Assembly (NCBI GenBank): GCA_032622095.1
Contig: CP136062.1
Span: 203,263,959-203,327,958, forward strand
Length of the DNA stretch: 64,000 nucleotides
Source: Siphonodentalium dalli
Taxonomy: Eukaryota; Mollusca; Scaphopoda; Gadilida; Siphonodentaliidae
Reading direction: 5' to 3'
How positions within the stretch are numbered: position 1 is the stretch's first letter; each line of letters begins with the position of its first letter. The notes under the pieces are model-generated. The model was not told the DNA's origin. It did not search any database and saw nothing but the letters and a program-made list of their open reading frames with translations. Below are positions 15,479 to 62,960 of the stretch, piece after piece. A program made the position numbers and the translations under genes.

Positions 15479-15492
15479 TGTACTTGTGTTAA

Positions 15493-24798: not shown

Positions 24799-25181
24799 CC
24801 CTTTACCCAACAAACCGGCCAAAACCGGCCAAATAAAGCTTCAACAGCCTAAAATATCTTCGGTCTGTCTCAATAGAACCATACACATATGGATATCATT
24901 GGAACCGGCTCCTTGACCACATTGTGATAGTTACAGTTATGCCCTGTGCCAATGCATTCTCTTATATATGCGAGTCGACCATAGGTCACCTCGCATATAT
25001 AAGAGAATGCATTGGCCTAAAAAAATCTTTTTTTACAATTTTTCTTAATACATTCTTTAACAATTTTATAATTTTTAATGTGTTAAGCCGATGCATTCTC
25101 TTATATATGCGAGGCGACCTATGGTCGACTCGCATATATAAGAGAATGCATTGGCACAGGGCCCTTCTGTTGGGTAAAGGG
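24799..25181 (+). mobile_element. B1: family B TTAA element with two opposed hairpins
   Basis: TTAA flanks at 24795-24798 and 25182-25185. The ends are CCCTTTACCCAACA and TGTTGGGTAAAGGG. After a 150-bp left part with CCGGCCAAAACCGGCC, hairpin 1 (GCCAATGCATTCTCTTATAT..) and hairpin 2 flank an A/T-rich spacer. Hairpin 2 is the reverse complement of hairpin 1, including its asymmetric centre. No ORF. Confidence 0.85.
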
Positions 25182-25350
25182 TTAAGGTTACTGTCAAAGG
25201 AATTCTCATTGATGCAGAATAGTGTTGTTAATTGTATTTTCAGTTCTCAAGCAATCGCCTTTGTGTGTATAGAAATGTTGAATTATTTGTCTTTCTCAGA
25301 AAATATAGGTTAATATCTGAATTTCATGAAAGTCTTGTTAAGTCTTTTTG

Positions 25351-25437
25351 TATAATCACATACAATTTCTGTATAAAATCACATACAATTTCTGTATAAT
25401 CACATGCAATCTCTGTATAATCACATGCAATATCTGT
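25351..25437 (+). repeat. Short tandem repeat, about 21-bp unit
   Basis: About four to five copies of TGTATAATCACATACAATTT(C) with small variants. Confidence 0.7.
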
Positions 25438-25661
25438 GACTCTTTAGTCATTGACATATTTCATTATTCTCCATTCCTTTATTTTGTGTATGCAAATCAA
25501 CAATCTACTTTTCATCTTTATTAGGATATTGATTTTGTTCGACACTGAAAAAAATGTGCTAATAAAACAAAATGTGGCATGAACTACTAAGTACAATGTA
25601 GAACTACCAGTACAGTATATTAAAATAACATTGTCATTTTGTCCTTGGAGATTATCTATAT

Positions 25662-26053
25662 CCCTTTACCCAACAGAAGGGCCCTGTGCCAATGCATTCT
25701 CTTATATATGCGAGTCGACCATAGGTCGCCTCGCATATATAAGAGAATGCATTGGCTTAACACATTAAAAATTATAAAATTGTTAAAGAATGTAAGAAAA
25801 AATGGTAAAAAGTGTTAAAAAAAGATTTTGTTTAGGCCAATGCATTCTCTTATATATGCGAGGCGACCTATGGTCGACTCGCATATATAAGAGAATGCAT
25901 TGGCACAGGGCATAACTGTAACTATCACAATGTGGTCAATGAGCCGGTTCCAATGATATCCATATTTGTATGGTTCTATTGAGACAGACCGAAGATATTT
26001 TAGGCTGTTGAAGCTTTATTTGGCCGGTTTTGGCCGGTTTGTTGGGTAAAGGG
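25662..26053 (-). mobile_element. B2: family B element, opposite orientation to B1
   Basis: It starts CCCTTTACCCAACAGAAGGG and ends GGTTTGTTGGGTAAAGGG. The right flank is TTAA (26054-26057); the left flank (CTATAT) has lost it. Both internal hairpins are full length. It lies 480 bp from B1 in inverted orientation, so the two could pair over nearly 400 bp. Confidence 0.85.
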
Positions 26054-26321
26054 TTAAGACATGTAATTATTGCTGTGTTGCTGCCCTACAGTACATGCAT
26101 ATATTAATAGTGAGAACACCATGTGTGCCTTTAATTGTGCAGTAAATCTTATAGTGATTGTGTTGATTGAGAATCCTAATGGAGAAACATCTGATGTTCT
26201 ATGTTTCATATACAGCTCAGTCAATGGAGTCTTACTAGTAGTTTATCAACTGTGTCCCAAGTGGAATGTAGATGACAATGATTAAAGATATCTTTAATGT
26301 TCAAGACCTCCAGTTACATGC

Positions 26322-26546
26322 TACAGTAATGCTCTAAGTAATTGACCCCTTAACCACAGCAGAATTATGGGTAACTTTTCAGGATTTAGTCGGAAATATG
26401 GCTTGTTGCCATTCATCGGAAACTCTCACTGAGAGCTTTCCGATGAATGGCAACAAGGCATATTTGCCATATTTCCAACTAAATCCTGAAAAGTTACCCA
26501 TTATTCTGCTGTGGTTAAGGGTTCGATTACTTAGGGCATTACTGTA
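26322..26546. mobile_element. A6: family A palindromic MITE
   Basis: It runs from TACAGTAATGCTCTAAGTAA to ACTTAGGGCATTACTGTA. Both arms carry AAGTAAT and CCCTTAACC in place of the common AAATAAT and TCCTTAACC. A short CATATTTGC duplication sits in the right arm. Confidence 0.8.
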
Positions 26547-26957
26547 CATATAATGTTCCACAATAATCTAGTTTTTACATCATTATAAGGCTGTTGAATG
26601 CCAAAACAAAGTTAAATGTGACATAAATTAGAATTATAAATAACAATGTCATTGAAAATTTAATAAGATTATTTCAGATAAATGTAATCAATTTCAGTTA
26701 GACATGTCTAACATTGGTGTGCCACAAAATGTAGATAGTTTAACACATGGAATTGTAATGCTTACACCAACAAATAATGGAAATCTATGGATGTAACCAC
26801 ATAGCCAGTCAAGCTGTTGAAATTTTTAAAACAAAATGTGACGAAGTAGTCAGAACACTATGGTATGTGTGACTTTAATTGTACAGTAAACCAAATAGTG
26901 ATTGTGTTGATTCAGAAGCAGGATGGATCGAGAATCTAGCACCTGAGCTTTCTGTTC

Positions 26958-27378
26958 CAAGCCTTGAAATAGTGTATCTGTCATTTGCAGAATGAGGTCC
27001 CCACTCCCCAGAGGATACATTTTGACACCAAATTCATCCTCTGGGAACCTCATTCTGCTTAAACCTCAACTCCTATGGGAGACCTAGTATCAGATTGAAG
27101 TTCCCCAGTTGAAGTTGGTGATGTTCACCCATTAGTCACCTCGATTATGCATATTATCTTCTGCAAATTAGGGGATAGAGAAACTGAACAGAAGTAACTA
27201 AAAACAATGTTAATTTGAGACTATAGATACATGTACTTCCCAGGAAATGAGGCCTAATCAGAATGAGGTTCCCCAGAGGTGAATTTGGTGATGCTACCCC
27301 ACTATGCGGGATAGCATCACTAATTTCACCCTCCGGGGCCTCATTCTGCAAATGACAGACACACTATTTCAAGGCTTG
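26958..27378. mobile_element. C3: family C element, type 2 spacer
   Basis: The ends are CAAGCCTTGAAATAGTGTAT and CACTATTTCAAGGCTTG. Hairpins are at both ends. The spacer has AATTTGAGACTATAGATAC-like and CACCTCGATTATGCATATTA blocks (orientation mixed between copies). The left hairpin is altered (CCCCACTCCCCAGAGGATAC). No target duplication is visible. Confidence 0.7.
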
Positions 27379-27736
27379 CTCAATCCTTCTTGGCGTCTTA
27401 GTTTATTGACTTTGAAAGCTTTATTTTCTGGGAGAAATTTTAAGTGATAATTGAATTCAATTACATTTTCACTGCTATTATTAAGGTTAATGAGGGGGCG
27501 TCTTTGTGAGGGAGTCTGAGTTTACTGGCACTCTACCAAAATGAGTTATTTTGAGTGCTTCTCATAAAATATAACTCCTTTCTAAGTCACATTTTAAAGC
27601 GAAGCTTGATAAAATTGTCTGCGAAGAAAGATTAGATTTCAAGCTGATTCATTTAAAAAATTGAGGAGTATTTTTCAGTGTCCTTGAGAAAGCTTGAACA
27701 TGCTTACACTATTTACTCCTGCCCTATAATGTGTTT

Positions 27737-28707
27737 AACCCTTTCTTCACTAAATACGCAGTCAAGTCTGAGTTTAGTGTGCCTGTCATTTGCAGAATGA
27801 CGTCCCCAGAGGGTGAATTTAGTGACGCTATCCCACATAGTGGGCTAGCATCACTAAACTCACCTTCTGGGAACCTCATTCTGCATGGCCTCATCTCCTA
27901 TGGGAGACATACATGTAGACTCAGATTGAAGTTCCCAAATGATGAATATTGCGATGTACACACATTGGGAACCTCGATTATGCAATATGTGTCCTTGGGG
28001 ATATAGAGAACCTAAACTATTAAATAAAGAAATATAATCTATGTGAAGAAGTTTCTATAGAAATTTGATAATAAAGAAACTAATTCCAGAGAAGATGAGG
28101 CCTATGCAGAATGAGGTCCCCAGAGGGTGAATTTAGTGATGGTAGCCCTCAGGCACACTAAATTCAGACTTCACTGCATATTTATTACCTGCAGCATTTC
28201 CCAACAATGAATAGAAATCCTTCTGCACTTGTATTGTATTATTTGTATATGTATATGATTTATTTCAGACTGAGAAGTCCATATTAAGCATGTTTACAAC
28301 ATGAATATAAGAATACAATAAATCAGTGTTAATCAATAGGTTATATATATAACAGATAATTCCATGACTTGAATAGTTTTTGCATCCCCAGCCGACTCAG
28401 TGCAAATGCAATGATCTAGCCAGGAAACTGTTCCCTGTGCTGCACTGACATAAGTAAATGTATCTGATGTGGGACCGAAATATTCTACATCAGAAAATTT
28501 CAATGAAACCTCTCTACAGAATCCACACATGTTACTTGTATTTTGTCAGGCATTCGCGTTGAAGTTTCCCATCACATACACCACTTTTGTGTATTATCTG
28601 TAGTCTGCTGATATTACCTGAACTTACATACAGATGAATTATTGACCGTTCCAATGAATACTTTTATAACTGGGTGGGAGAATCCATTTAGTAAAGAAAG
28701 GGGGGGG
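27737..28707. mobile_element. E3: family E element interrupted by C4
   Basis: TTAACCCTTTCTTCACTAAA opens it at about 27735. The matching right part (ACCGTTCCAATGAATACTTT, GGAGAATCCATTTAGTAAAG) ends in a G run at about 28700. C4 and a further 250-bp insertion (about 28260-28560) lie inside. The right TTAA is lost where C5 sequence begins. Confidence 0.55.
27763..28171. mobile_element. C4: family C element, right hairpin truncated
   Basis: It starts CAAGTCTGAGTTTAGTGTGC and ends CACACTAAATTCAGACTT. The left hairpin is complete, the type 1 spacer is present, and the right hairpin stops after its first arm (GATGGTAGCC). It lies inside E3, so it is younger than E3. Confidence 0.7.
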
Positions 28708-28709
28708 GC

Positions 28710-29050
28710 TATCTTCACCAAATTCACCCTTTGGGAACCTCATTCTGCTGAGGCCTCAATTGCTATGGAGACCTTGGATCAGATTGAAGTTCCCCCCATT
28801 GAAGTTGGTGATGTTCACCCACTAGTCACCTCGATTATACATTTTATCTTCTGCAAATTAGGGGATATAGAAACTGAACAGAATGGGAAAAGTTACTACA
28901 AGCAATATTAATTTGAGACTATAGATACTTCCTAGAAGATGAGGCCTAAGCAGAATGAGGTCCCAAGAGGGTGAATTTGGTAGCATAACTAAATTCACCC
29001 TCTGGGCTCTCATTCTGCAAATGTCACACACACTATTTCCAGACTTGCTA
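28710..29050. mobile_element. C5: family C element, left end missing
   Basis: It begins within the first hairpin (CTTCACCAAATTCACCCTTT), has the type 2 spacer (CCCATTGAAGTTGGTGATGT, CTGCAAATTAGGGGATATAG) and a degraded right hairpin, and ends near ACACACTATTTCCAGACTTG. Confidence 0.65.
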
Positions 29051-29099
29051 AGAAGAACATGGAACAATATATAGACTTTGTTTTTATTGATATTATTTA

Positions 29100-29480
29100 T
29101 ACAGTAATGCCCTAAGTAATCGACTCTTTAACCACAGCAGAATTATGGGTAACTTTTCAGGATTTAGTCGGAAATATGGCTTGTTGCCATTCATCGGAAA
29201 GCTCTCACTTAACTCACTCTGCATTGATATGGCTTTAATGGGACTTGAACCAGAGTTACTAGTATTGCATAAAATAAATTATTGCATGCATGATCAAGCT
29301 TACAGTAATGCTCTAAATAATCGACTCCTTAACCACAGCAAAATTATGGGTAATTTTTCAGGATTTAGTCAGTGAGAGCTTTCCGATGAATGGCAACAAG
29401 CCATATTTCCGACTAAATCCTGAAAAGTTATCAATAATTCTGCTTTGGTTAAGAAGTTGATTACTTAGAGCATTACTGTA
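29100..29480. mobile_element. A7/A8: half A palindrome, transferred flank, second A palindrome
   Basis: An A left half (29100-29218) breaks at the hairpin centre (GCTCTCAC). A segment of about 88 bp follows (29213-29300), matching the left flank of A3 (16866-16980) up to the next TACAGTAATG. A8 (29301-29480), a copy with a shortened left arm, ends ATTACTTAGAGCATTACTGT. The arrangement parallels 23613-24094. Confidence 0.75.
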
Positions 29481-30251
29481 GGCAACATACTCTTTAAATA
29501 AACTCTTATAACTAGGAATTTGAAGATTTAAATGAACGATAAATTTTATAAAGCAGGCACCCTCTATGGGTTTACAATGATTCATTTGTAAAGATATTCA
29601 GATCAACAGCTCATCTCAACTTCCCTCCAAATGAATGAATGGGAAGCATCTAACTACATGTCAGTGAGTACCCATTTTATTGTTTTCGCAGTGTTAACCT
29701 TGCAGATCCCTCAGTGAATATCATCTGTGTATAGGCTAGCTCGGCATGCCTTTGTCTGTGTAAATAATATGCACCCTTTTTTCCATGACTTGAAGTGAGA
29801 ATCTGCCAAGCATAGCTATTCTCATCCTCCCTGGAGGTATATTTGTGTATGACGAATGCGGTGGATAATCACATGTTATTATTATATCCAATCAGATTGT
29901 TTTGATTGATCCTGAGATAGGATTGTTGCGCTCGGTGCAATTTCAGTGCAGCAAGGTTAAATTGTAAAGGTGGCTTTCTTTTTATGAATAGATTAGTTTT
30001 TGTCACAACCAGTCTGTTGACCAGCCAGAGTGGTTGGTGTCTACTCGATAATTAGACAGAGTGCCTTTGGGGTCTGTTCAATAATTACCAGTAGTCTTCC
30101 TTCTTGTTGGCAGTGGACAAAAACTGGACAAGATCTCTATGATATTCCTAAAGGCTTACAGTTGCTTCCAGAATTAGTTCCATATAGCTTGGTACAGCTT
30201 CTTCTAAAACTTTGTGCAAATTGTTTAACTGACATTCCAAACAATATGCGG

Positions 30252-30276
30252 GTGGGGGGGGGGGGGGGGGGGGGGA
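30252..30276. repeat. Poly-G tract
   Basis: A run of more than 20 G after GGTG; a possible quadruplex and a likely source of length error in assembly. Confidence 0.8.
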
Positions 30277-30509
30277 GTACAACCAAATGCAAGCTATCCT
30301 TGAGAAATGTTTGTTAACTTTTCACTATAACATGCGTATAAAGCTGTATCTATCCCCAATTTATATTAATTGTAATGTTTAATGATAAGATAATATTTAT
30401 TAGCAAATCATGGAATATATGTTGTCTGCTACAAACGTGACATAAATAAAATAGCATGAATATAGTGCTACAGAATTGAACTGGTTTTAAAGATACGGTA
30501 AGTGTTGGT

Positions 30510-31015
30510 GGTGGGTATTGCTGTTAAAATATTCACCTCCGTTAAAACTACCATATAAACTGAAAGAATATTATATTGTAGACAAACTTTGTTCTTATAC
30601 CAATCATAAATATCACTTGTGGATTGCATGTTATTTTTATGTTAGTACAAAACAATCAACACCGGGGAGACACCACAAATGAACTTTGGTTAGAAATGCC
30701 ACCAATTTGTTTACAACATACCTGTATAGCATTTGCTAATTCTCGCCCCTCACCTCGCCTTTTGGTGTTGAATGGGTCACCGTGCATCACTCTCCTAAAA
30801 AAAATTACCACATTTTTGAGTGTTTTGCTTATCGCTCACTATTTATGTGCTCCATATTAACAAATGCTCGGCTCACACAAAGTGTGTTTTGTTGATAATA
30901 TAGCATTCATATTATAATTATACTATACTATTAGTATATACATTGTATTCTTCAGGAAATTTTCAAAATTTGGTAACTGTTATTTATAAATTATAACCTA
31001 TAGTGAAGGCGATCT
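30510..31015 (+). repeat. Dispersed repeat P, copy 1
   Basis: Ordered blocks shared with 32330-32905: TATTGCTGTTAAAATA, GTTCTTATACCAATCATAAA, CAATCAACACCGGGGAGA, TGAGTGTTTTGCTTATCGC, ACTATTAGTATAT and AATTTGGTAACTGTTATTTA. No coding frame and no terminal repeats were found. The two copies are in direct orientation, 1.8 kb apart. Confidence 0.6.
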
Positions 31016-31033
31016 GTGCCTTTAATATACATG

Positions 31034-31203
31034 TACAGTAATGCCCTAAATAATTGACTCCTTTAACCACAGCAGAATTATGGGTAACTTTTCAGGATTT
31101 AGTCGGAAATATGGATTGTTACCATTCATCGGGAAGCTCTCACCGAAAAGTTACCCATAATTCTACTGTGGTTAAGGAGTTGATTATTTAGGGCATTACT
31201 GTA
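31034..31203. mobile_element. A9: family A element lacking its centre
   Basis: The outer arms TACAGTAATGCCCTAAATAA and TTATTTAGGGCATTACTGTA are intact. The right half of the central palindrome is deleted, joining GGGAAGCTCTCAC to CGAAAAGTTACCC. Confidence 0.75.
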
Positions 31204-32329
31204 GTTAAACATTGCCATTGGAGCTTTAACAGTTTGGGGCTTCAGTAGTATTTTAAGAAAATCTCGATAAGGTACTCAAACTTTTAATGTCTACATGTAT
31301 GTTAGGTTTCTGAGATAGGGATTTTCTTTGATCATCATATTTGTTGGAGTGCAAAATGAAGTGCTCTTCATCTTCCATTACATTACAGTGTATGCATGTT
31401 CTATCTATTATATCAGATTTGGGCCTCTTGGATCTTTCAGTTTCAATACCAGCTAGTTTTTGTGAAGACTGATTCTGATAGTTGTTAATTACCTAACCAA
31501 AGATTTTGAGATATTCTGAGTTAATACTTTTGGAATTCAAATTTATTATAAATAAATATATTGATATTTTATGGTAACGTATATATCCATGTAAAGTACT
31601 GAATAGAAAACTGAAAAACAATTGAATTCTCAATATAGATTGTTGAGTGGTGTATTTGATCGATCGTATCTTAATACGGAAAGCTTTTCTCGTCAAAAAA
31701 GAATGCATCGCTTTAAGATAGCTGCTTGCCTGACCCTGTATGTTTACGATAAAAATATTTGCTGTGTCATTGTTGTCAAACACTCGACAGCACTCCTTGA
31801 ATGGAATGGTGACCTTGTAGTCAATAAAGTTCTGTATTTTATTGGATAATTATTGTGGTAGTTGTATAACCAGTATTGCAACCTTATTATTTGCATTTAA
31901 GGCTATGGAAGGAGTAATATAACATACATCGCTTGATGAATTTGTATTCAAATTGAATACATGGAATTTCCATGGTTTATTTTCAAGTCAGCCTGAATTG
32001 ATAGCACTAAGGTTGTGTTCAAACTTGTCATTCATATAATTGGGATTTATGTTATCGCTAATAGACCCACATACGTACATCCAGCTTTTTGGGAAACTTA
32101 TTTTTACCTTGGCCACACCAATATTATAGCCCAGTTTACTACCGGTAACATCTTTTTTGATAAAAGTAGATGCATTATTGTCAATCGATAATCGAAACAT
32201 TGTGGAACTATATTAATTTCATTTAGATTACTCAAAATGATATGTTTTATTCAAAATATAAAATAAATAAATGTTTTATTCAAAACATGAAATAAACTGA
32301 GGTTGTTCTTAAAATTATAGATGGCCTTC

Positions 32330-32905
32330 TTGATGGATATTGCTGTTAAAATAGTCACATCAAACCACCATAAACAGAAAGATTATTAAAGTATACGCAG
32401 ATTTTGTTCTTATACCAATCATAAATATCATATAAGTACATGTAGCATGCTATTGTCAAGATCGTATGCAGTATTAGCAAACAAGGCCATGTTTATGATG
32501 TTATGTTACAGTACAGTACAAATTTTTAAGAGTGTGCGATAAGCAAGACAATCAACACCGGGGAGATCCCAGTATCCAACTATGTGAATCTTTGTTAAAA
32601 CTGTACCATGTTGTTTACAACATACATGTACATGTACGTTTAGCTTTCGCTCATCCTCGCCACTCAATATTGTGGTATTGAATCATGGTGAATCAATCTC
32701 CCAAAAAAAAATCACCATGTTGTTGAGTGTTTTGCTTATCGCACACTCTTTATGTGCTGTATATAAACAAATAATCGGCTCTTGAGTTTTGTGGATAATA
32801 TCGTATTCATACTATCATTATACTATATATACTATTAGTATATTCTTGAGGAAATTTTCATAATTTGGTAACTTTTATTTATAAATTACAAAAACCAAGG
32901 CCATC
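32330..32905 (+). repeat. Dispersed repeat P, copy 2
   Basis: Same block order as copy 1 (GATATTGCTGTTAAAATAGT through AATTTGGTAACTTTTATTTA). It differs by small indels. Confidence 0.6.
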
Positions 32906-33110
32906 CAACCATTTAATAATGAAACTAAAGAAAAGAGAAAGCACTTGGACACTCCAAAATCTTCACCACATTATTTATATTTTAGTCAACACGAACATAA
33001 ATCAATCAATAAAAAGGTTTAGTTTTTACAATCGCTGATTACAAGTAGCAGGAAAAAAGTTGTAAGATGCATGGGTTCATAAACTAGGCGATAAATTGCT
33101 GTTTCCTTAT

Positions 33111-33517
33111 GGCCCTGAGTTTAGTGTGCCTGTCATTTGCGGGATAGCATCACCAAATTCACCCTCTGAAGATCTCATTCTGCATGACCTCATCTGCTAT
33201 GGAAAACTCAGATTGATGGTCCCAAATTGTGAATATTGTGATGACTACACCCATTAGGAACCTCGATTATGCAATGTGTCGTCTGCCAATTTGTGGATAT
33301 AGTGAAACTAAAGTTGAAAAGAAATAGAATCTATGTAAAGAAGTTTCTATAGAAATTTTATAATAAAGAAACTTTCCAGAGAAGATATGGCCTAAGCAGT
33401 ATGAGGTCCCCAGAGGGTGAATTTAGTGATGCTAGCCTGCTATGCAGGATAGCATCACTAAATTCACCCTCTGGGGACCTCATTCTGCAAATGACAGGTA
33501 CACTAACCTCCGGCTTG
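33111..33517. mobile_element. C6: family C element, type 1 spacer
   Basis: The left end is CCTGAGTTTAGTGTGCCTGT, with part of the left hairpin deleted; the right hairpin is complete. It ends CACTAACCTCCGGCTTG. The flanks TTCCTTAT and TTCCTTAA form an 8-bp duplication with one mismatch. Confidence 0.7.
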
Positions 33518-34678: not shown

Positions 34679-34862
34679 AAGCTACCAATGTTTAGATGCA
34701 TGCTATTTTATGCAAAATTGAACCAAATCGCTTCAGAAATTGTACTAAATACATATATCTTTAATACTGGTATAATAAAAACTGTCTTTTTTTCTGATTT
34801 TGTTGTCCAAAAAATTCAGGTATGGAGGGCTTTTCTTCTTTTTCTCACATATATTTTTTTAA

Positions 34863-35215
34863 CCCTTTACCGAACAAACCGGCCAAAACCGGCCAAATAA
34901 AGCTTCAACAGCCTAAAATATCTCCGGTCTGTCTCAATAAAACCATACAAATATGGATATCATTGGAACCGGCTCATTGACCACATTGTGAAGGTTACAG
35001 TTGTGCCCTGTGCCAATGCATTCTCTTATATATGCGAGTCGACCATAGGTCGCCTCGCATATATAAGAGAATGCATTGGCCTAAAAAAAATCTTTTTTTA
35101 ACACTTTTTACCATTTTTTCTTACATTCTTTAACAATTTTATAATTTTTAATGTGTTAAGCCAATGCATATATAAGAGAATGCATTGGCACAGGGCCCTT
35201 CTGTTGGGTAAAGGG
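34863..35215 (+). mobile_element. B3: family B element, second hairpin shortened
   Basis: TTAA is at 34859-34862 and 35216-35219. The second hairpin has collapsed to GCCAATGCATATATAAGAGA plus its closing arm, losing about 40 bp including the centre. The rest matches B1. Confidence 0.85.
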
Positions 35216-35274
35216 TTAAAGCACAAGCTTTGCATGGATTATTTATATTAAAATCAAAAAAGTCTCTTATTTTG

Positions 35275-35501: not shown

Positions 35502-35965
35502 AAGCAGTTGTGGGTTAATTCACACATGTGCTACATGTATGTTCAAGAATAGCTCTCAGCAGACACTCAAGATTGACATTTTCTATGATGTGTATCTATT
35601 CTGCATCAATTGTTCCTCCATTACCATTTGATCGGGTAACACTACAGCCCTGCATGTGTTAAACGGTTAGAGCTTTAAAATAAGATTTCATCAGTAAATG
35701 TTTAAGGCAACAGGGGTGAAGTAAAAATTCTCTGTTAAAGTTTTTGTCTCTATGGATTGTGATTATGGGTGGTGTGTACATCAATTTCTAGGTGGGTGTG
35801 GAGTTCTCACCCTTGAGCATTTCCAATAATCCAAGATGGCGTCCAAGATGGCCGCCGTAGTATAGAATATGAACTAAATCAGTCTAATCTGTTCTGTTGG
35901 AAACTACATGTATATCTCTTGAAATGGACTCAAATTTATACATTATTTGGATGCTATTACATTAA

Positions 35966-36174
35966 CCCTTTGAGTGCCAGGGGCCGATCTTATCGCCCCT
36001 AAATCTACAAAATAAGTCTGTTAAAGAATATAAGAATAATTTATTAAAATTGTAAAAAATTGTAAAAAAAAAAAAAATAATAATAATTGTTAGGCCAATG
36101 CATTCTCTTATATATGCGAGGCGACCTATAGGGTATATGGGTTGATACAAAAATCAGACCTGGCACTCAAAGGG
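35966..36174. mobile_element. D1: TTAA element with D termini and half of a B core
   Basis: Left TTAA is at 35962-35965; the right flank is TTAT. The ends are CCCTTTGAGTGCCAGG and CCTGGCACTCAAAGGG. The interior carries the B spacer and one B hairpin half (GCCAATGCATTCTCTTATAT..GCGACCTAT), then GTTGATACAAAAATCAGACC, which matches the right end of D2. Confidence 0.75.
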
Positions 36175-36180
36175 TTATAC

Positions 36181-36620: not shown

Positions 36621-36906
36621 TGCGCTTGCTTGTCATGACTGATAGATGCATGGAGTTGGGTAATCTGCATTAGACACATTAAAATGAAACACTTTAAATA
36701 GGACACAATATCAGACAATATGAACATGGGAAATCACATGAACATACGATATGAGATATATATTTTAGAAGACCAGAGACCCCCACGCTATATTTCATTT
36801 ATTCAAGATACCACCTTGTATAATTTAGTGCCATGACCTCAACTATGGGGAGAATTCACACTCAGTGTATGACGATAATAAGATTAGTGCACACTGGCGT
36901 GGTTAA

Positions 36907-37289
36907 CCCTTTACCCAACAGAACGGCCCTGTGCCAATGCATTCTCTTATATATGCGAGTCGACCATAGGTCGCCTCGCATATATAAGAGAATGCATTGG
37001 CTTAACACATTAAAAATTATAAAATTGTTAAAGAATGTAAGAAAAAATGGTAAAAAGAAGATTTTTTTTAGGCCAATGCATTCTCTTATATATGCGAGGC
37101 GACCTATGGTCGACTCGCATATATAAGAGAATGCATTGGCACAGGGCATAACTGTAACTATCACAATGTGGTCAAGGAGCCGGTTCCAATGATATCCATA
37201 TTTGTATGGTTCTATTGAGACAGACCGAAGATATTTTAGGCTGTTGAAGCTTTATTTGGCCGGTTTTGGCCGGTTTGTTGGGTAAAGGG
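36907..37289 (-). mobile_element. B4: family B element
   Basis: TTAA is at 36903-36906 and 37290-37293. The structure is full length with both hairpins intact; orientation is as B2. It starts CCCTTTACCCAACAGAACGG. Confidence 0.9.
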
Positions 37290-39031
37290 TTAAGAGTAAT
37301 CCTATGTACATGGCCATTTTGTCATACTGGTCTTGTGGGCAATGATATGAGTAAGTCTCTGACTAATAGAAATGGATATTTCCAGAGCTCCAAAAGCTGT
37401 TCAACATAAAATGTTGTCATGCCCTAGTAGATCAGAGAGATAATTTTATCACAGCAGCATCATAGGAAGATACACTGGGCTGCTGGTACAGTGTAACGGT
37501 GGTATCATGACATTCACTCATACACATTCAGATGACAGCATCAAACTTTGCATGAGTTTAGATATCAGAGTATACCGGTCATATGACCCTGATCTAACAT
37601 TTATTCAACAGCCTCTTCATGCACGAAGAACAATATAATTTCTGTGTGCAATACGATTATAGGGGATGCCATGAATCCTACATGTGCATGCACCAATCAA
37701 TATACCTTGTGAACTGACATGGTACAAGCGCCTGAATACAATGGTATTTCAGCGACATTTGGAAGATGAAAATTTCCCAATGAATATAACACATATAATG
37801 ACCCGATCCCAAATAAAAGTGAGCATGATCAACTGGCAACTGGTTAATTCTCAACCTGCTGGCTGAAGTGTAGCATACAGTTAGTTGAATATAGACTAGC
37901 ACTAGTCGTGGAAGTGTGCACATTTGGACTATTCAGTGAAATATAAATAACTCCCGATGGCTAGCGGTTGAGGAATTTCAAGTATGCCCAAAACAATTGT
38001 TGCTTGTAAGCAATATTAGCGGAGAAAATCGGGTCACGGTGGAATAAATTTGAAGATACACAGGGATAGGCTAGGACATCAGTTTCTCTGAAGCAGTTGT
38101 TCGCCCATGGCACATCCAAAATTGGGGTGAGCTAAATCAACTGTGGTCACAATTAACACAGGGCATAATACTTATGACACTGGCACCAAATGACAAGCTC
38201 TCCACTCTGATAGTATATTGCAATACTCAACGACAAGTGGAGATGGCAAACATTTCCGGAATGCATGAGACAGGGTTTAGGAGCGAATGCACTTCTATGA
38301 CTTAAAGGATTTATTCGGTCTAGAAACTACAAAACGCAATCGGAAAGCCCTCCCTGTTGTGATTAAAATGATCCAAGTCCCATTCCGATCGCATAATAAA
38401 TAACCCGTAAAATAAATAAATAATACCACCACCGGTATTCGGAGATTTCCGTGACTAAACTACGAGTGACGTACTTGTGGGGAGCAAATTAAAAACACAG
38501 ATTCGGAGCCGGAGTTTATTATGCAGACTACGATGACGTAATCGTAAGTCAGCCGATACTAAAATGTGGAGTCGTATGTGCGCGTGTGGTGTATAGATTA
38601 CGTTACGCTTTGGCCGTTTATCTGGAATAGAAGACAATAACTATGTGAATAAAGTAATTAATAGCGCCTAGAATGGTTGTTGTTTTTGTAGCCATTAATA
38701 ACATGCCGGCACGTGTCTGTTTTGGTAAATAGATGGCAGTAATTGGTGCTTTGATTGTCTCGCGTATTCACTCGGTGATTTGTAATCACTCAGTGACTAT
38801 TCATCAGTGTCAGTCGCGAACTTGTTTGCACTCTAAAATGCCACAAAGTGAATAGAAAGAACATTATCGCTCTGGTCATACATATATAAGAAGCGCCCAA
38901 ATTTATATAAACACTGGGCTGAATAATGTTAACTCTATTTAGGCGCTTTTGTTTTGTGTTTGTTTGTTGTTTTACTTTCGATATAACTATCCCGAGTATC
39001 TGTCATCTCCACATACTCTGGCGGAAGGAAG

Positions 39032-41968: not shown

Positions 41969-42180
41969 TTCTAACTTTGGAAAAAAAATTCAACAGTTTG
42001 AAATATCATGCCTGGCACATCAATAGTTGGAATATCAGACCAAAAATATGTTGAAATTGTTCTAATACCGTAGTTTAATTTTACAAAGCTGTATTTTGTT
42101 TCAAAACTCTTAAAGTTTCAAACTTTAGGTAAAACATTTTGGACTGAACTGGTAATCAGTTGGAAAATTTCCAGATTTAA

Positions 42181-42559
42181 CCCTTTACCCAACAGAACGG
42201 CCCTGTGCCAATGCATTCTCTTATATATGCGAGTCGACCATAGGTCGCCTCACATATATAAGAGAATGCATTGGCTTAACACATTAAAAATTATAAAATT
42301 GTTAAAGAATGTAAGAAAAAATGGTAAAACGTGTTTTTTAGGCCAATGCATTCTCTTATATATGCGAGGCGACCTATGGTCGACTCGCATATATAAGAGA
42401 ATGCATTGGCACAGGGCATAACTGTAACTATCACAATGTGGTCAAGGAGCCGGTTCCAATGATATCCATATTTGTATGGTTCTATTGAGACAGACCGAAG
42501 ATATTTTAGGCTGTTGAAGCTTTATTTGGCCGGTTTTGGCCGTTTTGTTGGGTAAAGGG
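42181..42559 (-). mobile_element. B5: family B element
   Basis: TTAA is at 42177-42180 and 42560-42563. Both hairpins are present, with one changed base in hairpin 1 (CTCACATATA) and a shortened spacer (AAAACGTGTTTTTTAGG). Confidence 0.9.
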
Positions 42560-42820
42560 TTAAGGTTCCTGTTGGAAAATTCCTAATGGAATTTCTTGGA
42601 ATTGGGATTTTTGGTAATTGGTCTTTATTCAAGGGGTGAGGGCGCCAGCGAAGGGGGTTTATGGGGTTTGGACTTTGGTTTAAATGTGGTTTAGGGGCTT
42701 TTTGGGTTTAAGAGCTTAAGCCCTTAAACCATTTTGTAAATGCCATATTAACTGTTGTTTGGGGTCTATAAATCATTCTAACACAACTTTCTAAAAACCA
42801 CAAAAGTTTGGACAAAATTC

Positions 42821-43289
42821 ATGTCCACACTGCATGTCCACGCTGCATGTCCACGCTGCATGTCCACGCTGCATGTCCACGCTGCATGTCCACACTGCAT
42901 GTCCACACTGCATGTCCACACTGCATGTCCTCACTTCATGTCCTCACTTCATGTCCTCACTTCATGTCCTCACTGCATGTCCACACTGCATGTCCTTGTC
43001 ATGTCCACACTGCATGTCCACACTGCATGTCCACACTGCATGTCCTTGCATTCATGTCCACACTGCATGTCCACACTGCATGTCCTTGCATTCATGTCCA
43101 CACTGCATGTCCACACTGCATGTCCACACTGCATGTCCACACTGCATGTCCACACTGCATGTCCTTGTCCACACTGCATGTCCTTGTCCACACTGCATGT
43201 CCTCACTTCATGTCCTCACTGCATGTCCACACTGCATGTCCTTGTCCACACTGCATGTCCACACTGCATGTCCACACTGCATGTCCTTG
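42821..43289 (+). repeat. 13-bp minisatellite, about 36 units
   Basis: The unit is ATGTCCACACTGC, with early units ATGTCCACGCTGC and later interruptions CTTGTCC, TCACTTC and CTTGCATTC. Because 13 is not a multiple of three and the unit has no stop, all three + frames are open and encode the same 13-residue period. This is why long ORFs appear here; they are not genes. Confidence 0.95.
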
Positions 43290-50495: not shown

Positions 50496-50543
50496 TACTC
50501 TCCACAACCAGGTTAGTGATACTGGACTTCCACCTTTTTACTT

Positions 50544-54030: not shown

Positions 54031-54039
54031 TGACACTTT

Positions 54040-55360: not shown

Positions 55361-55365
55361 TCTTT

Positions 55366-55909
55366 ACTAAATAGATTCTACCATTCATTTATATAAGTAT
55401 TTTTATATATATTATTCATCTGGAGGGATGTTGTTCAGGACATATGAGGACACCCTTTACCCAACAGAAGGGCCCTGTGCCAATGCATTCTCTAGGTGAC
55501 CATAGGTCGCCTCGCATATATAAGAGAATACATTGGCTTAATACATTAAAAATTATAAAATTGTTAAAGAATGTAAGAAAAAATGGTAAAAAGTGTTAAA
55601 AAAAGATTTTTTTTAGGCCAATGCATTCTCTTATATATGCGAGGCGACCTATGGTCGACTCGCATATATAAGAGAATGCATTGGCACAGGGCATAACTGT
55701 AACTATCATAATGTGGTCAAGGAGCTGGTTCCAATGATATCCATATTTGTATGGTTCTATTGAGACAGACCGAAGATATTTTAGGCTGTTGGCCGGTTTT
55801 GGCCGTTTTGTTGGGTAAAGGGTTAATTGGTGGGAAATGTTTAGACAATAACTTCAACAAACAGCCATAAGTTGGAACACATCATCTGCACATTTCCTAA
55901 GGGAAAGGG
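55366..55909. mobile_element. E5: family E element carrying B6
   Basis: TTAA is at 55362-55365 and 55910-55913. The ends are CCCTCTCTTTACTAAATAGA and TTCCTAAGGGAAAGGG. B6 sits inside at 55453-55822, so E5 was present before B6 arrived. Confidence 0.75.
55453..55822 (-). mobile_element. B6: family B element nested in E5
   Basis: It starts CCCTTTACCCAACAGAAGGG and ends TTTGTTGGGTAAAGGG. The right TTAA (55823-55826) is intact; the left flank is GGACA. Hairpin 1 has lost part of its first arm (ATTCTCTAGGTGACC), and the CAAATAAAGC segment near the right end is deleted. Confidence 0.85.
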
Positions 55910-56338
55910 TTAAAGTGGTATGCCCAGTTTGAAATTAATTGAAATTACACTTTCACGTACAATGAATACAATGATGACGATTTATTCTACATCATTTATC
56001 AGCATTAAAAGTTGTGTCAGATTTAGTGTTGAAAAAGAAATGAACTTAGAAACAAAGCAACTGCGATATTCAATGAGTGATGCATTGACGACGAAAGACA
56101 GGGTCAAAATTAACACAAAATCAGCCAGTTAAATATCAAAATCCTGGAAATAAACATGCCTGTACTTTTTCACATGATTTTTTCCTGACACCGAGGCTAT
56201 ATCATGATTAATTGTAGTATTAAGTCTGTGGTCCCTTGATCCTTAATCAACTTTCCGTAGGTATACTCTTCACTCGAAACCTTGGTGAGATCATGTACAC
56301 ATGATTATTTAATGATAACAATAGAGCTGTCAACTATA

Positions 56339-56554
56339 TACAGTAATGCCCTAAATAATCGACTCCTAACCACAGCAGAATTATGGGTAACTTTTCAGGA
56401 TTTAGTAGGAAATATGGCTTGTTGCCATTCATCGGAAAGCTCTCACTGAGAGCTTTCCGATGAATGGCAACAAGCCATATTTTCTGACTAAATCCTGAAA
56501 AGTTACCCATAATTCTGCTATGGTTAGGAGTCGATTATTTAGGGCATTACTGTA
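56339..56554. mobile_element. A15: family A palindromic MITE
   Basis: A complete palindrome flanked by TA-rich DNA (CTATATACAG..CTGTATACCC), with centre GCTCTCACTGAGAGC. Both arms share a one-base deletion relative to other copies (ACTCCTAACC and GGTTAGGAGT). Confidence 0.9.
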
Positions 56555-56633
56555 TACCCAGGTAACACTTGAAATGAACCTGTCTTGCAGCAATACGATA
56601 TTTATATATCCAATCAGATGGTTGGGTTTCTAC

Positions 56634-57072
56634 CAAGCCTGCAAATAGTGTGTCTGTCATTTGCAGAATGAGGTCTCCAGATGTTGAATATAGTGATGCT
56701 TTCCCATACAGCAGACAATCATCACCAAATTCACCATATGGATACCTCATTCTGCTTAGGCCTCATCTTCTGAAAAGTATCTATGGTTTTAAATTAACAT
56801 TGTTTTTCTCTTGGGAATTTTAAGTTTCTATATCACCTAATTTGCAGAAGATAAAATGCATAATCCAGGGTGACTAATGGGTGAACATCACCAACTTCAA
56901 CTAGGGAACTTCAATCTGATCTTATGTCTCCCATAGCAGTTGAGGCCTGAGCAGAATGAGGTTCCCATAGGTTGAATTCGGTGATGCTAGCCCACCATGT
57001 CAGATAGGGTCTCTAAATTCACCCTCTGTGGACCTCATTCTGCAAATGACATACACACTATATGCAGGCTTA
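56634..57072. mobile_element. C10: family C element, type 2 spacer
   Basis: The flanks GTTTCTAC (56626-56633) and GTTTCTAA (57073-57080) are an 8-bp duplication with one mismatch. The ends are CAAGCCTGCAAATAGTGTGT and CACACTATATGCAGGCTTA. Both hairpins are present but diverged. Confidence 0.8.
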
Positions 57073-57121
57073 GTTTCTAATGATGATTTAATGAACGTGG
57101 CGAGGAAGTGTGTCAAAAAAA

Positions 57122-57645
57122 TACAGTAATGCCCTAAATAATTGACTCCTTAACCACAGCAGAATTATGGGTAACTTTTCATGAAATCCTGAAAAATTAC
57201 CCATAATTATGCTGTGGTTAACCCTTTACCCAACAAACCGGCCAAAACCGGCCAAATAAAGCTTCAACAGCCTAAAATATCTTCGGTCTGTCTCAATAGA
57301 ACCATACAAATATGGATATCATTGGAACCGGCTCCTTGACCACATTGTGATAGTTACAGTTATGCCCTGTGCCAATGCATTCTCTTATATATGCGAGTCG
57401 AACATAGGTCGCCTCGCATATATAAGAGAATGCATTGGCCTAAAAGAAATCTTTTTTTAACACTTTTTACCATTTTTTCTTACATTCTTTAACAATTTTA
57501 TAATTTTTAATGTGTTAAGCCAATGCATTCTCTTATATATGCGAGGCGACCTATGGTCGACTCGCATATATAAGAGAATACATTGACACAGGGCCCTTCT
57601 GTTGGGTAAAGGGTTAAGGAGTCGATTATTTAGGGCATTGCTGTA
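57122..57645. mobile_element. A16: family A element split by B7
   Basis: The left part (57122-57221) has its central palindrome deleted; the right tip (57614-57645) reads GGAGTCGATTATTTAGGGCA and TTGCTGTA. The natural TTAA in the A sequence GTGGTTAAGGAG is duplicated on both sides of B7. Confidence 0.9.
57222..57613 (+). mobile_element. B7: family B element nested in A16, exact TTAA duplication
   Basis: TTAA is at 57218-57221 and 57614-57617. Uninterrupted A copies read GTGGTTAAGGAG with a single TTAA, so the target before insertion is known and the duplication is proven. Both hairpins are complete. Confidence 0.95.
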
Positions 57646-57679
57646 TCTCGATAGCTAAATGACAACGTAGGCATGTTAT

Positions 57680-58129
57680 CAAGGCCTCAAAATATGGTGG
57701 TGGAAATTTGCAGAATGAGGCATCAGAGGGTGAATATTGTGATGCTACTCTGGCCTAGCATCACTAAATTCACCCTCTGGGGACCTCATTCTGCCTAGGA
57801 CTTATCTCCTCTGGAAAGTATCTTCGTTATCAAATTAACAATTATTTATAGTTTCTTTAGAAACTTCTTTTTCGGTTTAGATTCTCTATATCCCCAAATT
57901 GGCAGACGACAATGCATAATCAAGTTGTTCAATTGGTGCACATCACCATCTTCACCATCTCGTAACTTAAATCTGAGTCTATAGGTCTTCCATAGAAGAT
58001 GAGGACATGCAGAATGAGGTCCCCAGAGGGTGAAGTTAGTGATGCTAGCCCACTGTTCCATTTAGCGTCAGTAAATTCATCCTCTGTGGACCTCATTCTG
58101 CAAATTACCAGCACCATATTTTGATGCTA
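57680..58129. mobile_element. C11: diverged family C element
   Basis: The ends are CAAGGCCTCAAAATATGGTG and CACCATATTTTGATGCTA. The flanks CATGTTAT and CATGTGAT differ at one base. The spacer is type 1 (CCCCAAATTGGCAGACGACA) and hairpins lie at both ends. Confidence 0.75.
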
Positions 58130-58154
58130 CATGTGATCTAGGTTCATTGACATA

Positions 58155-58371
58155 TACAGTGATGCCCTAAGTAATCGACTCCTTAAAAACAGCAGAATTA
58201 TGGGTAACTTTTCAGGATTTAGTCGGAAATATGGCTTGTTGCCATTCATCGGAAAGCTCTCGTGGAGAGCTTTCCGATGAATGGCAACAAGCCATATTTC
58301 CGACTAAATCCTGAAAAGTTACCCATAATTCTGCTGTGTTTAAGGAGTCGATTACTTAGGGCATTACTGTA
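58155..58371. mobile_element. A17: family A palindromic MITE
   Basis: It runs from TACAGTGATGCCCTAAGTAA to TTACTTAGGGCATTACTGTA. Both arms have AAGTAATC, and CCTTAAA where the common form has CCTTAACC. The centre is GCTCTCGTGGAGAGC. Confidence 0.9.
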
Positions 58372-58558
58372 GTTCATTTCTGGAGGGCACTCCCATCCAT
58401 TTCTCATTAAATCACTCATGACACAAATTAATTAAGTTTTCTTGTACTAGTAGTTTGATCGCATCAGTATCAACTCAACACTCATTGGTTTAAATATCAG
58501 TTAACTATCGAGTGCACCAATTCACAGAGACAATTTCTGGCTTCTGAGCAAGCCTCAA

Positions 58559-58996
58559 TTTAGTGTGTCTGACATTTGCAGAATGAGGTACCCAGAGGGT
58601 GAATTTTGTTACTATATATCCCACATAGTGGGCTAACATCACCAAATTCACCATCTGGGGACCTCATTCTCCTTGGGCCTCAACTGATATGGGAGATCTG
58701 AGATCAGATTGAAGTTCGCCAATTAAAGTTGGTGATGTTCACCCATTATTCACATCGATTATACATTTTATCTTCTGCAAAATTAGTAGATATAGAGACT
58801 CAGCAGAAGGGAAAAGTAACTAAAAACAATGTTAATTTGAGACTATAGATATTTCCCAGAAGATTAGGCCTAAGCAGAATGAGGTCTCCAGAGGGTGAAT
58901 TTGGTAACGTTAGCTCGCTGTGCGGGATAACATCACTAAATTCACCCTCTGGGGACCTCATTCTGCAAATATCAAGACACACTAAAATCAGGCTTG
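58559..58996. mobile_element. C12: family C element, type 2 spacer
   Basis: The ends are CAAGCCTCAATTTAGTGTGT and CACACTAAAATCAGGCTTG. The flanks CTTCTGAG and CTTCAAAG are a decayed 8-bp duplication (two mismatches). Both hairpins are complete. Confidence 0.75.
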
Positions 58997-59209
58997 CTTC
59001 AAAGATGGGCTATGATTTTTATTTGGGAATCAGGAAGCACTTAACCAACATTGAATGGCTGCCCTATTATCAAGTGCCAGAGAAGGTTCAATCAACTCAG
59101 GTTAACATCCCTTAATACTGGGGAGAATTCTGATGTGTTTCACCTAACCACACATGGCAGAAATGAATTAGTCTTGGATTGTTGCATGAGGAGACATAGT
59201 CAACATTAA

Positions 59210-59434
59210 CCCTTTCAGTGCCAAGTCCAATTTTTGTATCAACCCATATTTCCTTGATCATTTTTCAAATTTATCGATTATAATAATGTGATACATTGAT
59301 GGAAAGAGCTCTAATGTGATACATTGATGGAAAGAGCTCTTCCATCAATGTATCACATTATTATAATCAATAAATTTGAAAAATGATCAAGGAAATATGG
59401 GTTGATACAAAAATCGGACTTGGCACTGAAAGGG
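59210..59434. mobile_element. D2: TTAA-flanked palindromic element
   Basis: TTAA is at 59206-59209 and 59435-59438. The ends are CCCTTTCAGTGCCAAGTCC and GGACTTGGCACTGAAAGGG. The arms are complementary over most of the element. A 34-bp piece of the left arm (AATGTGATACATTGATGGAA with GAGCTC) is duplicated beside the centre. Confidence 0.9.
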
Positions 59435-59439
59435 TTAAC

Positions 59440-61187
59440 CACCAGTATAGGTGTAACTCATAGTCGGCAGTCAAAAATGGTCAATTCAAGGTCAAATCGG
59501 GTCCAATTTCACATGCACCCATGTCCTTCCTCATATACGCTCATTATTATAATAGTCATGTTTCTGACAAAGGCATGGGACGAATCCCGCCAGTGGCGGG
59601 CTAATCTGCTAGTATTATATATATCAGGAAATACACTTCTCAAGGACTAAAATAGGGACAAGTGGTAAAATTTAGGGAGAAGATAATATCAAGCCTTCAA
59701 ATAGATAATATCCCAAGTCACCTTCTAGGCTGGTCTCTGGTACCCTGATTTTATTTATCTGAGCAAGTTTGTCACTTGCTCACCAGAGGTCTGTGGTTAT
59801 TATGTGTGGTGTAGTACATGATTTCGCAGTGAAATTAACTCTCTCCGCCACTAATAAAACCAATGAAAATTAAATGGCGCATTGGCTTAATGCATTGACA
59901 CTCGACTATGAGTTAAATTATCTTGTACTTTTTGCATGTAATTGAATGTGAGTCAAGGGTCAATATGTTAAATGACAATAAACCACACCATAGCAAACAT
60001 TTAGATGAATGCAGTTAATACATTTGGTGATTATTTGTGTCAAAGATGTTTCAAGGTAATTTGTATGCATTATGTCCAGGTCAATTAGCTGTAATAGATA
60101 TAGTCCGAGAGCTGAGACTGGATTTCACGATTTTTTTTAGGTATTTTCTTAATCAGAGGGTGATAGGCATCAGAAACCCCATTTCTTACGAGCTGTAGTG
60201 GATATACCCTTGTCTATGAATAGCATATTTCCAATTTTCTGAGGTGTTATTTTGGCAAATTTTGTTAAATGTGTTTTTTTTGGGTAAAATCTCGATCAAT
60301 AATAGCCAACAGACACGCATTATATGCTTATTAACTTGCACAATTGGTGTATAGACTAATCAGTTGCATGTTCATAGAAATTGTGGGGAAAGCACTACAC
60401 CCATGACGTTTAATGATAACGTCGGCAAAAAATGTGTTGTGATTCAACAAACCATGCACGTTCAGCATAGCATGAGTAATAAATGTTATACCCATTTGTA
60501 TTTATAAAACAGCAGTGATCGTCTGTGTTATAATATGCACTATTATTTGTCAATCAAATATCAACAAACCTTGTTACCTCAAAAATTGTGCAATAATGTG
60601 TCAGCTCTTGGATAATAACGTCACCAATTATTATCTAATACGACGCAGCTGTTTTGAATTTCGCGAGCGCTTTTGTCGCACAGTAGATCGTTGGGCATAA
60701 AGCATTAATGTTGTAATCAGAAAATCTTGTTACTGTGTCTTTCGATTACTGGTATTCCAAATGAGAATTAGGAACATTGAATTACAATGTAAGTTCATTC
60801 GTAGCGTTAGTTTACCTTTTATTGAGAAAATAAGACAAAATTAATAACGACACTGTAGTAACTACAGCCTACACACATCGGGGCGAGTGAAAAGTGATCG
60901 AAATTCCTGATGTGAAATATAATAAGAATGTCATCACGAATTTACCTTTCTACTGTGCGAAGATGGGCATTTAATGTACAGCACTTGGTATGGTCCGATA
61001 CTGTGCGAAACAAAATAACATATATTTAATAAGGAATTAATTGTTATCATTAGACTATATAGTACATACATGCATGTGATAATCCATAAATATACTATTT
61101 TCTGAAATCGAAAGGAACACATAATTATGAACAAAGCAGAAGATACATTCAGGCGAACTCGGTCAATTGGGAAAGTTACACGATGAA
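59440..61187. other. Intron 2 stretch without recognised elements
   Basis: AT-rich DNA. I see no member of the window's repeat families, no splice-supported exon and no RNA gene. Confidence 0.4.
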
Positions 61188-61256
61188 CACCATGTCGATT
61201 TCAACGAAAATCGACGAACAACATGTTCGTCGATTTTCGTTGAAATCGACATGGTG
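61188..61256. repeat. Perfect palindrome, 33-bp arms with 3-nt loop
   Basis: The arm CACCATGTCGATTTCAACGA continues AAATCGACGAACA, then loop ACA (61221-61223), then the exact complement to 61256. There is no relation to families A-E and no flanking duplication was found. It lies 450 bp upstream of exon 3. Confidence 0.9.
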
Positions 61257-61356
61257 ACACCTTTGAATGAAATGAACAGCTATGAAATGGACACGCTTCT
61301 CGGTATAGTATCTTTGCCGCAGTGCTCACCCAGCGTCAGGAAAAGAAATAAACAGC

Positions 61357-61573
61357 TACAGTAATGCTCTAATTAATCGACCTCTTAGCCACAGCAGAAT
61401 TATGGGTAACTTTTCAGGATTTAGTCGGAAATATGGCTTGTTGCCATTCATTGGAAAGCTCTCGGGGAGAGCTTTCCGATGAATGGCAACAAGCCATATT
61501 TCCGACTAAATCCTGAAAAGTTACCCATAATTCTGCTTTGGTTAAGAGGTCGATTAATTAGAGCATTACTGTA
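61357..61573. mobile_element. A18: family A palindromic MITE, divergent subtype
   Basis: The outer arms read GCTCTAATTAATCGACCTCT on the left and the exact complement on the right, several bases away from the common A sequence. The centre is GCTCTCGGGGAGAGC. It lies 136 bp before exon 3. Confidence 0.9.
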
Positions 61574-61709
61574 CTCTCATATGAGTGGTTTTGCTTTGGT
61601 TCGTTAATTACGCTAGCGTATGATCATATCACTTCTAAACAAACTTTCCATTAATGATTTAATAGAATTAGTGGAATACAATCTCATGAGGATTTTTCTT
61701 GTTTTTCAG

Positions 61710-61781
61710 GTTCTAACAGATTTTTCAGTACAACAAACCCCAGGCAGCAGAACCAGAAAGATGGGGATGAGAAGCCACAAG
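61710..61781 (+). CDS. SPG7: Exon 3 of paraplegin-like m-AAA protease subunit
   Basis: The acceptor (CTTGTTTTTCAG) ends at 61709 and the donor GTATAT begins at 61782. The first two bases complete the Gly codon begun at 13073, giving HYNW-G-SNRFFSTTNPRQQ, then a charged NQKDGDEKPQ stretch, and the exon leaves in phase 1. Aligned without gaps on the split Gly, the human paraplegin segment GGTFYFNTSRLKQKN shares F, T, Q and N plus conservative changes, and the human exon 3 also ends in phase 1. This would be the matrix-side linker before the first transmembrane segment. Mobile element A18 ends 137 bp upstream and a three-copy 125-bp tandem repeat begins 25 bp downstream. Confidence 0.65.
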
Positions 61782-61805
61782 GTATATGTAAGATGAATTC
61801 ATGCT

Positions 61806-62180
61806 TTATCTGTTTGGTTACTGAATGGATTCTCCCAGTCAGTTATAGATTCCTATTCAGTCATTTGGAGGGAATGGTCTGATGGGCCCATACTCCTGAT
61901 CCAACTACAATCCCCCATGGTGAGACTATGTTATCTGTTTGGTTACTGAATGGATTCTCCCAGTCAGTTATAGATTCCTATTCAGTCATTTGGAGGGAAT
62001 GGTCTGATGGGCCCATACTCCTGATCCAACTACAATCCCCCATGGTGAGACTATGTTATCTGTTTGGTTACTGAATGGATTCTCCCAGTCAGTTATAGAT
62101 TCCTATTCAGTCATTTGGAGGGAATGGTCTGATGGGCCCATACTCCTGATCCAACTACAATCCCCCATGGTGAGACTATG
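61806..62180 (+). repeat. 125-bp tandem repeat, three copies
   Basis: Copies begin at 61806, 61931 and 62056 (TTATCTGTTTGGTTACTGAA) and appear identical. Each holds GGATTCTCCCAGTCAGTTAT and GGAGGGAATGGTCTGATGGG, which resemble the interior of family E (compare E6). The near identity means a recent expansion or an assembly artefact. It lies 25 bp inside intron 3. Confidence 0.9.
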
Positions 62181-62246
62181 TTATCTGTCCAGAAGAGGAC
62201 CCTTTTCATCAATTAGAGCTGATTAGAGTGGGAAATATTAGAAACT

Positions 62247-62960
62247 CAAGCAGGAGAACCTCATTCTGCTTAACCCTTTACCCAACAAACCGGTCAAAAA
62301 CGGCCAAATAAAGCTGCAACAGCATAAATTATCTTGAGTCTGTCTCAATAAAACCATACAAATATGGATATCATTGGAACCGGCTCATTGACCACATTGT
62401 GATGGTTACAGTTATGCCCTGTGCCAATGCATTCTCTTATATATGCGAGTCGACCATAGGTCACCTCGCATATATAAGAGAATGCATTGGTCTAAAAAAT
62501 CTTTTTTTAACACTTTTTACCATTTTTTTCTTACATTCTTTAACAATTTTATAATTTTTAATGTGTTAAGCCAATGCATTCTCTTATATATGCGAGGCGA
62601 CCTATGGTCGACTCGCATATATAAGAGAATGCATTGGCACAGGGCCGTCCTGTTGGGTAAAGGGTTAAGCCTCAACTGCTATGGGAGTCCTAGAATCAGA
62701 TTGAAGTTCCCCAGTTGAAGGTCACCCATTAGTCACCTCGATTATGCATTTTTATCTTCTGCAAATTAGGGGATATAGAAACTTCCCAGAAGGGAAAAAA
62801 TAACTAAAACAATGTTAATTTGAGACTATAGATATACACTTCCCAGAAGATGAGGCCTAAGCAGAATGAGGTATCCAGAGGGTGAATTTGATGTTGCTAG
62901 CCCGATGTGAGGGATAGCATCACTAAATTCACCCTCTGTGGACCTCATTCTGCAGGCTTG
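62247..62960. mobile_element. C13: family C element split by B8
   Basis: The left fragment is short (CAAGCAGGAGAACCTCATTC). After B8 the type 2 spacer (TTAAGCCTCAACTGCTATGG, CACCTCGATTATGCATTTTT) and a complete right hairpin follow, ending CATTCTGCAGGCTTG. The first hairpin is mostly missing. Confidence 0.75.
62274..62664 (+). mobile_element. B8: family B element nested in C13, TTAA duplication
   Basis: TTAA is at 62270-62273 and 62665-62668. C3 shows the uninterrupted equivalent (CATTCTGCTTAAACCTCAAC). Both hairpins are complete; the left end reads CCCTTTACCCAACAAACCGG. Confidence 0.9.

Follow-up and report, generated by a model that had tools for sequence, protein, structure and literature searches.

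A family of short TTAA elements, each carrying two long hairpins in opposed orientation, recurs in the 64,000-nucleotide stretch of Siphonodentalium dalli DNA that we analysed (the window). We read these elements, with a probability of roughly two in three, as young non-autonomous MITEs of the piggyBac superfamily, whose twin hairpins come from a founder and have been carried passively since. The finding is largely an ordinary one, apart from one unusual architectural detail. The window in which it was made has a GC content of 37% and is rich in repeats, with at least 60 direct families.

Alignment of the copies yields eight elements (family B, copies B1 to B8), measuring 361–400 bp including the terminal TTAA, with four on each strand and a pairwise identity between copies of 93.1–99.2%. 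On the forward strand are B1 (24795–25185, from TTAA to TTAA; hairpin 1 at 24948–25016, hairpin 2 at 25087–25155), B3 (34859–35219; hairpin 1 at 35012–35080), B7 (57218–57617; hairpins at 57371–57439 and 57519–57587), which sits within a palindromic repeat, and B8 (62270–62668; hairpins at 62423–62491 and 62570–62638), which sits within another repeat family. Hairpin 2 of B3 has been cut to 30 nt (35160–35189) by a 39-nt deletion that took most of the inner arm and the centre. The reverse strand holds B2 (25658–26057; hairpin 1 at 25836–25904, hairpin 2 at 25688–25756), B4 (36903–37293; 37072–37140 and 36933–37001), B5 (42177–42563; 42342–42410 and 42207–42275), and B6 (55449–55826; hairpin 1 at 55617–55685), whose hairpin 2 (55479–55537) is 59 nt long, with a 10-nt deletion and an altered outer half. 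From the left TIR, a unique part of ~127 bp that contains ACCGGCCAAA twice leads to hairpin 1; an AT-rich spacer of ~79 bp separates this from hairpin 2, which is followed by a short right flank and the second TIR. The family is thus laid out as MITEs are: short, non-coding, bounded by TIRs, and present in multiple homogeneous copies. The recurrence of the hairpin centre, which an earlier note on this DNA had described, is far from fortuitous. With up to two mismatches allowed, the window has 15 occurrences of CGACCTATGGTCGA, where chance would give a mean of 0.11, and none of 100 shuffles reached 15.

As for the ends, the 14-bp TIR CCCTTTACCCAACA is found at both extremities of all eight copies with at most one mismatch, and only one of the 16 ends (the left end of B3) departs from it at all. 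A piggyBac TIR begins with CCC, most often CCCTT, and CCCTTTACCCAACA does so in all eight copies; excerpts of PMC10813416 give CCCTT as the most conserved piggyBac end motif. TTAA, the target-site duplication of this superfamily, flanks six of the eight copies on both sides. In B2 and B6 only the left TTAA is present, the right one being replaced by ATAT and TGTC, and this loss counts against our reading. We then joined the flanks of B1, B3, B4, B5, B7, and B8 and aligned them to the window. The joined flanks of B7 gave 31 alignments across the junction, 26 of them with TTAA at the insertion point, although many of these rows are two arms of one copy of a palindromic repeat and one of the 31 comes from the second arm of the interrupted repeat itself. 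The support from B8 is weaker, with TTAA in one of 18 rows (27045–27114), TTAG in five, and other variants in the rest; that relatives of this site mostly lack TTAA (17 of 18 rows) also counts against our reading. For B1, B3, B4, and B5, no alignment in the window spans the joined site. Together, the TTAA insertion data and the CCCTT start support a piggyBac-type MITE.

Movement of these elements would depend on a DDD transposase of the piggyBac type encoded elsewhere, which would recognise the CCCTTTACCCAACA ends, excise the element, and insert it at TTAA. The window contains no intact transposase, because it has no complete stop-to-stop ORF longer than 197 aa; a Pfam comparison of 10 ORFs, out of 48 listed with 90 aa or more, gave three weak matches and none at the curated cut-off. 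Family B is like other piggyBac-superfamily MITEs in its TTAA target duplication, CCCTT ends, short length, lack of a long ORF, and several near-identical copies. In contrast to these, it has a long internal inverted repeat with palindromic arms, and no autonomous parent has been identified for it. In the portions of the transposon literature that were available, no element corresponding to family B is described, and five end and arm sequences of the elements had no occurrence in the literature searched. Exact-pattern scans of the viral_contigs and genome_contigs collections, which are viral and prokaryotic and have little bearing on a eukaryote, gave no matches.

The unusual detail lies in the hairpins. 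The two imperfect palindromes described for each element in the earlier note are borne out, with a consensus length of 69 nt. In the consensus hairpin, arms of 27 bp are followed inward by one mismatch, 5 bp, and a loop of 3 nt, and the centre is asymmetric because of the single mismatch and the loop. Hairpin 2 had been described as the exact reverse complement of hairpin 1. This is true of the consensus, in which the inverted repeat extends outward for seven more bases, all exact, but single copies are exact in only two (B2 and B4) of the six that have both hairpins ungapped. The consensus and the aligned copies alike support an inverted repeat of imperfect palindromes within a TTAA element. 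Foldback structure in small TIR elements is known from the palindromic MITE-like repeats of Anopheles, although two opposed hairpins are not described for these in the excerpted text of PMC3212995.

Most hairpins have kept near full length, as originally noticed: 14 of 16 are full, the exceptions being hairpin 2 of B3 and of B6. It does not follow that six intact copies of eight are more than drift would leave. At the rate of deletion found outside the hairpins, 6.15 of the eight copies would be expected intact, compared with six seen (P for at least six = 0.72). Deletions of at least 5 nt number two in 1,104 bp of hairpin and four in 2,096 bp outside, one extra 2-nt deletion outside being left uncounted. 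Since hairpin retention matches the outside deletion rate, it counts for passive carriage. Selection for hairpin retention, which we had entertained as a candidate, is rejected in view of the matching deletion rates inside and outside.

Substitutions, counted without gapped cells and one insertion column, are spread less evenly. There are 1/432 in the arms of hairpin 1, 5/398 in the arms of hairpin 2, and 5/225 in the centres, with 22/1,004 in the unique left part, 16/599 in the spacer, 0/128 in the repeat flanking the hairpins, 4/32 in the right flank, and 6/288 in TIR and TTAA, five of these last six falling at the lost TTAA of B2 and B6. The arms are therefore less substituted than the unique left part and spacer combined (6/830 vs. 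38/1,603), with P = 0.003 by a Fisher test, which assumes independent cells although related copies are not independent. A circular-shift test of the same contrast gives 0.038, distinct substitution events per site give P = 0.007, and P = 0.012 is obtained both for arms against the unique part alone and for whole hairpins against unique part and spacer. Much of the contrast comes from B8, whose left part has 10 changes, and B1, with 12 changes in the spacer beside a deletion. Leaving out B8 brings the comparison of arms with the unique part to P = 0.23, while leaving out both copies makes the contrast with unique part and spacer nonsignificant (4/614 vs. 15/1,202, P = 0.33). The counts hint that the arms possibly change less, and they do not support protection of the hairpin as a fold. 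Eight copies so near the consensus fit passive carriage as well as they fit weak selection on the arms, and cannot decide between the two. The differences in B1 and B8 are clustered.

It is conceivable, if doubtful, that the arm sequence has been selected as an array of binding sites for the transposase. Each palindrome would then provide inverted sites to either side of its axis, placed at unequal distances from the tips, with hairpin 1 starting 149 bp from the left and hairpin 2 ending 26 bp from the right (consensus columns, TTAA excluded). The low substitution of the arms speaks for this, as do known systems. Excerpts of PMC7351741 and PMC11707139 describe palindromic repeats in the ends of piggyBac and piggyBat that are bound by cysteine-rich C-terminal domains of the transposase; in piggyBac, the repeat is a 19-bp palindrome bound by a dimer of these domains, and in cells the element requires asymmetric ends with palindromic repeats (PMC7351741, same excerpts). 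Family B likewise has palindrome-like repeats inside its tips, at unequal tip distances as in piggyBac. The palindromes in the described ends differ in being ~12–19 bp long and within ~120 bp of the tips, while those of family B are 69 bp. On the other side, the arm contrast is not significant once B1 and B8 are set aside, the arms of the two hairpins are uneven in their substitutions, and the same pattern would arise if the four identical arms had been homogenised or if families had recently exchanged sequence. Under our preferred reading, too, the likeliest role of the palindromes, if they have any, would be as subterminal transposase sites, by analogy with the palindromic repeats of piggyBac and piggyBat, and not as folded RNA or DNA. 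Should the arms be such sites, family B would offer a natural means of finding out whether additional subterminal sites promote transposition or restrain it, as in piggyBat, where activity is lower with an additional palindrome-containing site at the left end (excerpts of PMC11707139).

A separate TTAA element, C1 (35962–36178, no strand assigned), bears on this question because it carries one half-hairpin (36094–36129). Its ends are TTAACCCTTTGAGTGCC and the complement of this sequence, flanked by TTAA on the left side and by TTAT on the right. All 36 nt of the half-hairpin agree with the spacer-side half of hairpin 1, and C1 diverges directly after the 3-nt loop, at CCTATAGG, itself a small palindrome. 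At the mismatch, it carries the spacer-side base, while the outer halves of both hairpins of family B share the other base. A 69-nt stretch of C1 that starts at the arm folds poorly (z = −1.3). Such identity, in an element with other ends and a poor fold, favors binding sites. The AT-rich part of C1 aligns to the spacer of family B with 47 identities, 9 mismatches, and 11 gap columns, a score equalled by 4.8% of Markov controls, which makes their homology marginal. At face value, mismatches with C1 number 0/36 in the arm and 9/56 in the aligned spacer (P = 0.011), a hint that the arm may change slowly even in an element without the palindrome. Neither this difference nor the low arm substitution in family B is predicted by passive carriage, and both count against it. 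A broader proposal, which we think rather unlikely, is that the 36-nt module is conserved for its sequence rather than its fold, is common to TTAA families with different ends, and in family B acts, in four inverted copies, as a subterminal transposase-binding array driving recent amplification.

Under inheritance from a founder with passive carriage, the reading that we prefer, comparison of C1 with family B suggests a common sequence module that turned palindromic. Family B would then illustrate how a small transposon may come by long internal palindromes, in the order half module, palindrome, inverted twin, and amplification. The simplest course would start from a half-hairpin module, still present in C1, which would have folded back to a palindrome at the CCTATAGG dyad. 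One point change in the outer half would have made the centre asymmetric, after which the whole hairpin would have been copied, inverted, to the far side of the AT-rich spacer, and the twin-hairpin element amplified. That both hairpins show the same asymmetry would be explained by the second being a copy of the first. In another superfamily, altered transposon copies have been attributed to template switching during gap repair (excerpts of PMC4168063). The direction could also be the opposite, with C1 left over from a B-like element whose hairpin broke at the tip.

As for folding, z-scores for family B hairpins were computed on B7, in which both hairpins fold far better than shuffles (RNA z of −11.0 to −13.1); hairpin 1 of this copy differs from the consensus by one base in the inner stem, and hairpin 2 by two bases in the outer arm. 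Hairpins of 69 nt that fold this well could be small-RNA or microRNA-like precursors with a selected fold, and animal pre-miRNAs are of roughly the same size. A relaxed search of B7 returned 26 rows with E up to 1, mostly miRNA families, the best being MIR841 (E = 1.8e-18), which spans the whole stem formed by hairpins 1 and 2. However, none of the 26 rows is at its gathering score (MIR841 has 85.1 bits vs. 200), a long perfect stem probably inflates such scores by itself, and the loop is only 3 nt. We consider precursors of this kind very improbable. Across the whole window, no RNA family was at gathering score and no tRNAs were found. The dumbbell that the earlier note had envisaged for single strands is not the preferred fold either. 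With DNA parameters, the consensus core gives −74.9 kcal/mol for two hairpins and −96.9 kcal/mol for one long stem pairing hairpin 1 with hairpin 2, so that the dumbbell would be a kinetic and not a thermodynamic state.

Orientation is constant in all 15 centres present (eight in hairpin 1 and seven in hairpin 2, the hairpin 2 centre of B3 being lost), as expected if the twin state was inherited, and the spacer has one orientation in all eight copies. Flip/flop or spacer inversion via the inverted repeats was also considered, and there is none among the eight copies. A relic of a parvovirus-like replicon with hairpin-transfer palindromic ends, to which an inverted pair of imperfect, asymmetrically centred palindromes might point, can be set aside almost entirely in view of this single orientation of centres and spacers and of the location of the block formed by the hairpins and spacer inside the same TIRs in all eight copies. 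The orientation of the hairpin 2 centre in B6 was judged from its inner half and loop. The outer half of that hairpin has the spacer-side base, adjoining the 10-nt deletion, a pattern that would be expected from arm-to-arm repair or from an ancestral state.

Foldback repeats are common in the window, and hairpins as such, like those of family B, a TTAA-flanked family of probable piggyBac-type MITEs, are therefore not special. Near-perfect palindromes with arms of 37-100 bp and at most one mismatch make up one repeat family, with members at 11927-12035, 17051-17125, 56407-56485, 58162-58364, 61393-61537 and 62992-63110, and the family B copy B7 (57218-57617, plus strand) is inserted in a relative of this family. 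A lone 69-bp palindrome with 34-bp arms, located at 61188-61256, has a sequence unlike that of the B hairpins.

Another foldback is a 233-bp TTAA element at 59206-59438 (ends TTAACCCTTTCAGTGCC), which is of a third kind besides family B and C1, the different TTAA element at 35962-36178 that holds one half of the B hairpin. Both of its ends are similar to one side of C1 over 43 bp, with 91% and 93% identity. The element at 15489-15760, with ends TTAACTCTTT and AAAGGGTTAA, apparently represents another TTAA family, similar starts being found within the window at 16248, 27735, 52576, 55352 and 63748.

Tandem arrays are present as well: a 38-bp unit at 14229-15461 (32.3 copies, 97% matches), the 13-bp unit CATGTCCACACTG at 42820-43286 (37.5 copies), a little past copy B5, and a 125-bp unit at 61806-62188 (3.1 copies, 100% matches), which lies shortly before copy B8.
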